In this document: piece by piece, positions 31,351 through 34,447 of the stretch
Layout of the letters: every line of letters begins with the position of its first letter
How positions within the stretch are numbered: the stretch's first letter is position 1
Source: Geothrix sp. 21YS21S-4
GTDB lineage: Bacteria; Acidobacteriota; Holophagae; Holophagales; Holophagaceae
Reading direction: 5' to 3'
Assembly (NCBI RefSeq): GCF_030845995.1
Contig: NZ_CP132719.1
Location: forward strand, 2,976,001 to 3,040,000
Length of the DNA stretch: 64,000 bases
Notes under the pieces: model-generated
The model's database searches: none
Seen by the model: the letters and a program-made list of their open reading frames with translations, nothing else
Told to the model about the DNA's origin: nothing
Translations under genes and position numbers: made by a program

Positions 31351-32643
<1,293 letters not shown>

Positions 32644-32644
32644 T

Positions 32645-32672
32645 CAGAGAGGCGCGCTCGCGCGCCTCTCTG
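32645..32672. terminator. GC-rich hairpin between the TrpC-like gene and eno
   Basis: CAGAGAGGCGCG (32645-32656) pairs perfectly with 32661-32672 around a 4-nt loop. No U-tract follows on either strand, so termination may be partial or the hairpin may stabilise an mRNA end. Confidence 0.55.
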
Positions 32673-32702
32673 ATCTTAGCCAGGTGTGCGCGACGACCAG
32701 CG

Positions 32703-33182
32703 CTACTTCTTGGCGGCCTTCTTCGGCGCAGCCTTCTTCACGGCCGGCTTCTTCGCGGCGGTGGCCTTCTTCGGCGCGGCCTTCTTCACGGCCTTCTTCA
32801 CAGCGGTCTTCTTGGCGGCCGGCTTCTTCGCGACGGCCTTCTTCGGCGCCACGGCCTTCTTCACGGCGGTCTTCTTGGCGACCGGCTTCTTGGCGGCGGC
32901 CTTCTTCGGCGTAGCCTTCTTCACGGCCGGCTTCTTCGCGGCGGCCTTCTTCGGAGCGGCCTTCTTCACGACGGCCTTCTTGGCAGCCGGCTTCTTCGCG
33001 GCGGCCTTCTTGGGGGCGGCGGCCTTCTTGGCGGCCGGCTTCTTCGCGGCAGCCTTCTTGGGGGCGGCGGCCTTCTTCACGGCCGGCTTCTTCGCCGCGG
33101 GCTTTTTCGGCGCGGCCTTCTTCGCCGGCTTCTTCGCGGCGACGGGTTCGGTCGGGACGACCATGTTGGTCAGTTCAGCCAT
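32703..33182 (-). CDS. Possible separate histone-H1-like protein from an in-frame internal start
   Basis: An ATG at 33182, in frame with the longer gene, is preceded by AAAGGAG with ideal 6-nt spacing, better than most starts in this window. It would give a 159-residue protein, MAELTNMVVPTEPVAAKKPA followed by Lys/Ala/Pro repeats. That resembles stand-alone bacterial H1-like nucleoid proteins, which bind DNA through the basic tail. It may be the ancestral gene, with loss of a stop codon joining it to the TrpC-like frame, or a second product of one gene. Confidence 0.5.
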   Translation of the reverse strand: MAELTNMVVPTEPVAAKKPAKKAAPKKPAAKKPAVKKAAAPKKAAAKKPAAKKAAAPKKAAAKKPAAKKAVVKKAAPKKAAAKKPAVKKATPKKAAAKKPVAKKTAVKKAVAPKKAVAKKPAAKKTAVKKAVKKAAPKKATAAKKPAVKKAAPKKAAKK

Positions 33183-34151
33183 GGGTGGCTCCTTTACGCC
33201 CTTTTGGGCGGGGTTGGAAGGGGTCGGGCGGGAAGACGGCTTAGCCTTGGCAAGCTGGATGCCAACTCCAGGCGCATCCTTCCGCGGGGTGGATGGGCTT
33301 TCCTTGGCTGCCGGAACAGCCTGGGGGGCTTGCGCCGCGTCGGCGGCAGAGCCGGTCTTGCCTTTGGGCTTCACGGCTTTCTTCGGGGGCTCGACGCCGG
33401 CCAGGATCTGGGCGAGGCGCTTGCCGGGATAGTAGTCGTCGAGGAGCGCGTCGCCGACGATCAGCCCATGGACGCCCAGGGCCTCCATCTGCTTGATCTG
33501 CTCCAGGCGGTGGATGCCGCCTTCCACGATCTTCAGGCAGCTCTTGGGCACCTTCTTGACGAGGGCCACGGCCTGCTCCCAGGCGGCCTCCCAGGTGTCC
33601 AGGTTCCGGCCCACGGCGCACACGATGTCCGCCCCGGCTTCCACGGCCCGCTCCAATTCGGACTCGGAGGTGACTTCCACCACCACGTCCAGGCCCTTGC
33701 TCATGGCGAACTTCAGGAGGGCCTGGAGCCGCTCTTGGCCGAGCAGCGCGGGCATCAGGAAGATGGCGTCCGCGCCGAGGATCTTGCTCTCCTCGACCTG
33801 GTACTCCTCGAAGATGAACTCCCGCCGCAGCAGGGGCACCTTCACCTGGCTCCGCACTTCGGACAGGTGCTTGTCCTCGCCGTAGTACAGGAACTTGTCC
33901 GTGGCCACGGAAAGGGCCTTGGCCCCGTTCTCGACCAGGCTCTTGGCATGGGTCGAGGCCTTGTAGGATTCCCGCACCTGGCCGCGGCCGGGGTCGCCCC
34001 CGGCCACTTCACCCAAGATGGTGATTCCAGGCTGACTTAGCTCTTCCTTCAACGAATGGTGGCCCTTGTAGGCATCCTTGACCGCCACGGGTCCTCGCTG
34101 CTTCTTGATTTCCACATCCAGGGCCTTGAAGATGGCCACTTTCTTTAGCAT
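32703..34151 (-). CDS. TrpC-like barrel lacking catalytic lysines, fused to histone-H1-like tail
   Basis: This 482-residue protein starts as an indole-3-glycerol-phosphate-synthase (TrpC) barrel, residues 1-250. It aligns along its length with E. coli TrpC. At the positions of the two essential lysines it has Ala50 (GEVAGGDPGRG, where TrpC has ExKxASPSxG) and Arg110 (LLRREFIFEEYQ, where TrpC has LxKDFI). The NNR motif is also lost (CAVGRNL); Glu48, Glu159 and Glu210 remain. A Pro/Lys linker (251-325) leads to about 140 residues of AAKKPA/AAPKKA repeats resembling histone H1 or bacterial Hc1/AlgP tails. True IGPS activity is therefore unlikely. A strong internal ribosome-binding site allows the tail to be made alone. 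Confidence 0.85.
   Translation of the reverse strand: MLKKVAIFKALDVEIKKQRGPVAVKDAYKGHHSLKEELSQPGITILGEVAGGDPGRGQVRESYKASTHAKSLVENGAKALSVATDKFLYYGEDKHLSEVRSQVKVPLLRREFIFEEYQVEESKILGADAIFLMPALLGQERLQALLKFAMSKGLDVVVEVTSESELERAVEAGADIVCAVGRNLDTWEAAWEQAVALVKKVPKSCLKIVEGGIHRLEQIKQMEALGVHGLIVGDALLDDYYPGKRLAQILAGVEPPKKAVKPKGKTGSAADAAQAPQAVPAAKESPSTPRKDAPGVGIQLAKAKPSSRPTPSNPAQKGVKEPPMAELTNMVVPTEPVAAKKPAKKAAPKKPAAKKPAVKKAAAPKKAAAKKPAAKKAAAPKKAAAKKPAAKKAVVKKAAPKKAAAKKPAVKKATPKKAAAKKPVAKKTAVKKAVAPKKAVAKKPAAKKTAVKKAVKKAAPKKATAAKKPAVKKAAPKKAAKK
32706..33150. repeat. Low-complexity Lys/Ala/Pro codon repeats
   Basis: CTTCTT-GGC/GGC-type units (plus-strand view) repeat in near-tandem with 15-30 bp periods and encode the AAKKPA/APKKAA tail. 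Copy number in such tracts tends to vary between strains through slippage. Confidence 0.85.
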
Positions 34152-34447
34152 TTCCCACGCTCCAAATCTCAGATACCTCGCTGCTGGCCCTATGGGGAAG
34201 ATGATCGGTCGTTTTTCCTCTGATTCAACATCAAACCAGCGATCCGGATGAGGTCAACAGAGAAATCTCCCGAATCTTCATTTTTTTGGACGCTACCTCC
34301 CCTTCCCGACCCATTCGTTTCCGCCCTTCGGATGCCCGTACGGACGCGAGCGGAGTCGACGGAAGCGGCGCGACGCGGACCGCGGGAACGCCGCCCCCTG
34401 TTACGCTTCAACTCGCGCGTCCGCAGCGGAGCGGCCCCGAGGCACCC

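Follow-up and report, generated by a model that had tools for sequence, protein, structure and literature searches.

What does a gene make in which an indole-3-glycerol phosphate synthase (IGPS, TrpC) barrel runs on, in the same frame, into a histone-H1-like tail? The gene in question lies at 32703-34151 of the window, i.e., the whole analysed stretch of 64,000 nucleotides, which comprises positions 2976001-3040000 of a 3.08 Mb genome assembled in one contig. The closest named records to the barrel are from Geothrix (Holophagaceae, Acidobacteriota), with identities up to 93%. A preliminary description had noticed barrel and tail in a single open reading frame, leaving its strand (minus) unstated, and both parts were recovered here as Pfam matches in one frame. 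We consider it likely that the Holophagaceae possess here a two-product gene, coding for the barrel-tail fusion and for a free H1-like protein of 159 residues, most likely nucleoid proteins. The features are the following.

32703..34151, minus strand: long ORF, IGPS-like barrel (almost certainly dead) plus H1-like tail in one frame (ORF and translation, Pfam)
33396..34151, minus strand: IGPS/TrpC-like (beta/alpha)8 barrel, residues 1-252 (PF00218, AF2, Foldseek, residue comparison)
33183..33395, minus strand: linker, residues 253-323, variable, lysine/proline-rich, in frame
33198..33209, minus strand: predicted hairpin GCCC-AAAA-GGGC, directly 5' of the internal Shine-Dalgarno
33189..33195, minus strand: putative internal Shine-Dalgarno AAAGGAG (AAGGAG in 54/54 aligned sites)
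33180..33182, minus strand: putative internal start codon ATG, in frame, codon 324 (conservation across loci)
32703..33182, minus strand: nested ORF, H1-like, 159 aa, product predicted (HC2 match, composition)
34252..34257, minus strand: putative, weak -35-like TTGACC 5' of the long ORF (stretch conserved in Geothrix-like loci)

The barrel and its replaced active-site residues

The long ORF comprises 482 codons from ATG (34151-34149) to TAG. The preliminary description had named a stop between the two parts as one finding that would speak against its reading. There are zero stops between barrel and tail, and the fusion recurs in other genomes: the parts share a frame in 40 of 42 public-record loci (the remaining two are truncated) and in all 20 loci representing ten further genera; among the latter loci, L116 is frameshifted within the barrel. 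With the in-frame fusion present in all eleven genera sampled, an assembly join of two genes was ruled out. An antisense ORF at 32686-33432 (plus strand) was dismissed by eye as an artefact, being the complement of the Lys/Ala repeats.

The barrel matched the IGPS family PF00218 at residues 10-239 with 171.1 bits (cut-off 27), and stayed below the cut-off of every NCBIfam TrpC model listed, the best being 182.1 against 260. The AF2 model of the barrel was of moderate confidence (mean pLDDT 71.7, pTM 0.74) and weak at residues 1-31 and 50-65; its top natural match in Foldseek was the IGPS 6y88, with a TM score of 0.76. The top PDB matches were designed Kemp eliminases built on IGPS scaffolds. 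Kinship with these was set aside, the active-site residues presumably being replaced in both.

For the residue comparison, 21 family rows were set against 39 canonical TrpC rows, i.e., the genome's own, 17 from the same genus, nine from other genera of the family and 12 from outside the family. Positions follow the Sulfolobus IGPS numbering, in which we take Glu48 of the window's protein to be Glu51 and Ala50 to be Lys53, the other positions being equal. All 39 canonical rows carry Lys53, Lys110, Asn180 and Ser211. In the family rows Lys53 is replaced by Ala (17) or Ser (4), Lys110 by Arg (17), His (2) or Gln (2), Asn180 by Val (16) or Leu (5), and Ser211 by Ala (14), Gly (6) or Cys (1), which leaves the catalytic Lys53, Lys110 and Asn180 in 0/21. 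The earlier placement of Ala50 and Arg110 at the two essential lysines, and of Val180-Gly181 where Asn-Asn is expected, was thus correct, as was the statement that Glu48, Glu159 and Glu210 are kept in the window's protein. Across the family Glu159 is kept in 19 of the 21 rows and is Gln in two, while Glu51, Arg182, Glu210 and Gly233 are present in all family and canonical rows compared; these four, Pro57 and Phe112 are invariant in the family and occur in at least 38 of the 39 canonical rows. Canonical IGPS/TrpC (PF00218) and the barrel have in common the fold, the family score, Glu51, Glu210, Arg182 and the glycine of the phosphate loop; they differ in that Lys53, Lys110, Asn180 and Ser211 are missing here in 21/21, and in that the fusion gene stands outside the trp operon and carries a basic tail. 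Lys53, Lys110, Glu159 and Asn180 are described as essential in IGPS (PMC7681013). The Lys-to-Arg change at the Lys110 position, which is the change present here, is reported to lower the kcat of the M. tuberculosis enzyme more than 2700-fold (PMC10591298).

There were also 54 barrel positions fixed in at least 20 of the 21 family rows, yet found in at most 10% of the canonical rows. They are scattered over the N-terminus, the middle and the C-terminus of the barrel, and their fixation suggests that the barrel has a role. One possible role, which we regard as doubtful, is that of an enzyme repurposed for other chemistry or of a ligand sensor setting the DNA binding of the tail, with use made of the kept Glu51, Glu210, Arg182, Gly233 and, mostly, Glu159. 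The six invariant residues common with the canonical rows and the 54 newly fixed positions speak for such a role, but Glu159 is Gln in two loci, and positions so scattered fit a binding surface no less than a pocket. This reading is compatible with two products.

The probable internal start codon

The preliminary description had overlooked a conserved ribosome-binding site and start codon within the gene. At codon 324, inside the variable linker, an ATG is preceded by AAAGGAG at a spacing of six bases. The site was followed through 56 loci, comprising the window, 35 public-record loci and 20 loci from other genera, and was located via the protein motif KExxM, which is present in 54 of the 56 and forces part of the letters. 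AAGGAG-N6-ATGG, with AAGGAG at -12 to -7 and ATGG at +1 to +4, was found in 54/54 of these sites, the loci being related and not independent. The third positions and the G after ATG, which KExxM does not force, were likewise invariant in 54/54, and the residue pair between Lys-Glu and Met took ten different forms. AAGGAG-N6-ATG is unchanged in ten of the eleven genera. In the eleventh, one genome (G073) has AAGGAG-N6-GTGG in place of the ATG site and the other (G074) has lost the internal start site, so that a free form would not be indispensable in the latter.

Synonymous variation around the site was low. In a hand-picked set of 17 of 41 rows, codons 310-323 gave a pS of 0.022 and a pN of 0.081, against a pS of 0.447 in the barrel and 0.306 in the remaining linker, i.e., roughly one twentieth of the synonymous change seen in the barrel. 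Over all 41 rows, synonymous diversity reached its minimum for the stretch in these codons, at 0.01, the lowest barrel block having 0.64, and none of 100000 within-amino-acid permutations reached so low a value, a count that is no strict probability since the 41 rows are related. The Lys-Glu codons were AAG GAG in 41/41 rows at residue 320, in 1/40 at residue 35 and in 0/32 at residue 283. The 16S end, GGATCACCTCCTTT, which matches the internal Shine-Dalgarno, occurs twice in the genome. In the window AAGGAG-N5-8-ATG occurs three times, at codon 324, at the start of a flagellin gene and antisense to an ORF, and in shuffled windows about one such site is expected by chance; it is therefore the conservation and not the match itself that we count as evidence. 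In the predicted fold the Shine-Dalgarno and the ATG are partly paired, with mean unpaired values of 0.33 and 0.44 against 0.45 for the region. They would be no more open than their surroundings, which counts mildly against an internal start.

The sequences show that selection has acted on the nucleotides of the internal start, which ribosomes very probably use. Since this start and its ribosome-binding site are conserved, the tail is probably produced on its own as well. Of the earlier view of a barrel with a DNA-binding tail, the repurposed barrel and the H1-like tail stand, but the gene probably has two products.

It is unlikely, in our judgement, that the conserved block is primarily another nucleic-acid signal (a hairpin for RNA processing or stability, a site on DNA or RNA to which a protein binds, or a piece of an internal promoter) that resembles a start site only incidentally. 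Some 40 bases upstream of the ATG the quiet block sets in, which is further than a Shine-Dalgarno requires, and it includes a hairpin of four to five pairs. Its stem, GCCC-N4-GGGC, is kept in 53 of the 54 sites around a variable loop, AAAA or often GNRA-like. No covariation was seen in seven folded sequences out of the 54 sites; the stem being invariant in those seven, covariation neither supports nor refutes the hairpin. A second and weaker quiet block, without obvious signal, was observed at codons 258-273 (33333-33380 of the window, minus strand), at 0.29-0.36 of the barrel's mean. From the second block and the extent of the first, other nucleic-acid signals may be present. However, the strictest positions are AAGGAG, the six-base spacing and ATGG, GTG substitutes for ATG in one locus, and, besides the missing covariation, there was no Rfam family at gathering scores and no sigma-70-type promoter in a consensus scan of 32550-34400. 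Programmed frameshifting was dropped by eye: the Shine-Dalgarno lies downstream of an A-AAG-GGC run, and the run is not conserved.

Quite unlikely is also a fusion-only gene, in which the tail would be a mere extension of the barrel and the internal Shine-Dalgarno and ATG the fossil of a separate H1-like gene that lost the stop preceding it. In its favour, barrel, linker and tail share one frame, the merger of two adjacent genes would leave such a site, and one genome dropped the site but kept the gene. A fossil would nevertheless decay, yet the site has stayed unchanged in ten of eleven genera while the synonymous sites of the barrel came to differ and the residues beside the site changed.

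Two predicted products and related systems

The tail had been described as about 140 residues of Lys/Ala/Pro repeats, and about 143 were found. Residues 338-480 match HC2 (PF07382, histone-H1-like) with 46.3 bits against a cut-off of 40, a low-complexity match that is weak as homology, and it is the sole HC2 match in the window's genome. Among nine other Holophagaceae genomes, six had an HC2 match at E <= 0.01 and three reached the cut-off. The product of the nested ORF would consist of 36% Lys, 35% Ala and 12% Pro, with a net charge of +56, and from this composition we infer that the tail binds DNA. Comparable tails in AlgP/PhaF and HupB bind DNA or are believed to do so. We lean towards the free tail being a nucleoid protein. 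The eleventh genus (g17: G074/L109 and G073/L108) was the sole examined genus with a less basic tail, linker and tail of G074 having 154 residues with a net charge of +13, where those of the window have 230 residues and +64; neither G074 nor G073 had an HC2 match. This genus is a natural experiment on the free form.

In the two-product model, the full ORF would give a catalytically dead TrpC barrel with a long basic H1-like tail, and the in-frame internal ATG behind its strong Shine-Dalgarno would give a typical bacterial H1-like protein consisting of just the tail. The lysine repeats would bind DNA or other polyanions. The free form could then act as a general compacting protein, while in the fusion the barrel would be anchored to the nucleoid, serving as globular head or adaptor. 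The fusion gene sits beside eno and a parA-like gene. That the head of dead enzyme senses a phosphorylated metabolite, and so sets how the long and the free form compact or tether the chromosome, is an idea we hold improbable.

Both elements of the model are already known from other systems, i.e., tails as in AlgP and HupB, and genes within genes. AlgP of Pseudomonas joins an N-terminal domain to a 154-residue H1-like tail of KPAA repeats, and the H1-like tail of PhaF is believed to tether granules to the nucleoid (PMC9239181). The fusion here resembles both in having an N-terminal domain before an H1-like tail. The N-terminal part of AlgP is described as a putative alpha-helical domain instead of a barrel, and a nested start is not mentioned for either protein in the accessible part of that paper. 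In mycobacterial HupB a PAKK/KAAK tail is needed for nucleoid binding; its head is an HU domain, and the accessible part of the source again does not mention a nested start (PMC5676037). Taken alone, the nested ORF is like Chlamydia Hc2 (PF07382, PMC2848022), for which lysine-rich repeats of variable number are reported, except that here the H1-like ORF is nested in frame within a barrel gene. In-frame internal starts giving two proteins from one frame are reported for CcmM, CheA and infB (PMC11005335), and one for Cas11b within cas8b (PMC11899642). In these cases a short form without the N-terminal part has a role of its own, the layout predicted here being the same, and by analogy the long and short forms of one frame can have separate roles. 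In none of them, however, does a dead metabolic enzyme harbour a nested histone-like protein. The literature searched, most subscription papers lying outside its scope, contained no description of the fusion gene.

On this model a metabolic enzyme has given up catalysis and become the conserved partner of a histone-like tail. The gene has been retained across the Holophagaceae, streamlined genomes without the TrpA and TrpC of the pathway included, and the strict internal start predicts two chromatin-type proteins from one gene. Such a protein may well be labelled indole-3-glycerol phosphate synthase by automatic annotation, with the nested product overlooked.

Distribution, tryptophan pathway and neighbourhood

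By barrel profile search the gene was found in 62 of 77 Holophagaceae genomes, the window's own included, and in all eleven genera; this count takes in a fragment (G098) and a frameshifted copy (G083), and leaves out G085, whose sole match scores like canonical TrpC. In a 396-genome sample of the phylum, with the best candidates (up to six) scored per genome, no comparable match occurred outside the Holophagaceae, the best reaching 158.6 bits against at least 455 for full-length members. The phylogeny of barrels with the same changes, which the preliminary description had named as a check, united the 21 family rows of a 48-row tree in a single clade (100/100), with a stem of 1.79 changes per site leading to short branches; the canonical TrpC of the window's genome fell outside it. 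Several long branches come together in this tree, and the sister group is unsettled. The barrel had a pN/pS of 0.12. Judged from these sequences, the gene is family-specific, old and under purifying selection.

A canonical trpC, also sought as the preliminary description had advised, was found elsewhere in the genome between trpD-like and trpF-like genes (named by Pfam), and trpA is present as well. In 13/13 genomes of the same genus for which both genes were available, the barrel was closer in identity to that of the window (mean 90.3%) than the canonical TrpC was to the one of the window's genome (mean 76.4%). TrpA was searched for in seven genomes and was missing in five (G060, G061, G062, G086 and G096), with estimated completeness of 84-97%, three of them being small (0.9-1.2 Mb). 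In these five the sole IGPS match is the barrel of the fusion gene, so the gene is not kept there for tryptophan synthesis. The three small genomes, G060-G062 (L105-L107), belong to the streamlined Holophagaceae genus g16; they have no TrpA and no canonical TrpC, yet keep the gene. A free product would be a mere 29-33 residues long there, which speaks against the two-product reading. With a separate canonical trpC, one clade on a long stem and retention without TrpA or another IGPS, the earlier proposal of a repurposed barrel holds, and the barrel is almost certainly dead and repurposed. A functional TrpC with unusual residues, serving as a second IGPS isoenzyme, is hardly credible despite the clear fold and family score, and was ruled out by the loss of both lysines, Asn180 and Ser211 in 21/21 rows, by the more than 2700-fold slower equivalent Lys-to-Arg mutant (as reported in PMC10591298) and by retention in the five genomes where pathway genes are missing.

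Eight of the 15 family genomes without the gene were checked around eno. In four (G013, G031, G069 and G084) the contig carrying eno breaks off within the Lys/Ala tail that precedes it, and the gene is missing there because the tail repeat broke the assembly. No eno was obtained for G070 and G034, G012 has eno without a tail before it, and in G021 the start of eno was not located; true losses among the 15 are possible. Such Lys/Ala repeats break short-read assemblies, and the gene can appear split or missing in drafts, as in these four of the eight checked. The barrel gene is present twice per assembly in G016 and G028. A second copy in the public bin Umea2p3_bin-1388 (L050, L059) is close to L058 of another bin and looks like mixed binning.

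The gene is followed on the same strand by eno in 45 of 62 loci, five loci being counted twice, and the other 17 end before eno. A divergent upp precedes it, and DivIC/ftsB, dapF and the parA-like gene lie downstream in most sufficiently long loci (names by Pfam). The 5' leader of the long ORF (34152-34260 of the window, minus strand) is well conserved among Geothrix-like loci and reads TTGACC ... GAGGTATCTGAGATTTGGAG. Between the tail stop and the start of eno there is a strong GC-rich hairpin at 32645-32672 (minus strand), CAGAGAGGCGC...GCGCCTCTCTG, which has no T-run. Eight tail-eno spacers were extracted; a long stem forms in those of the window, L052 and L115 but not in those of L109, L116 and L119, and the spacers of L159, L160 and L162 are similar by eye.
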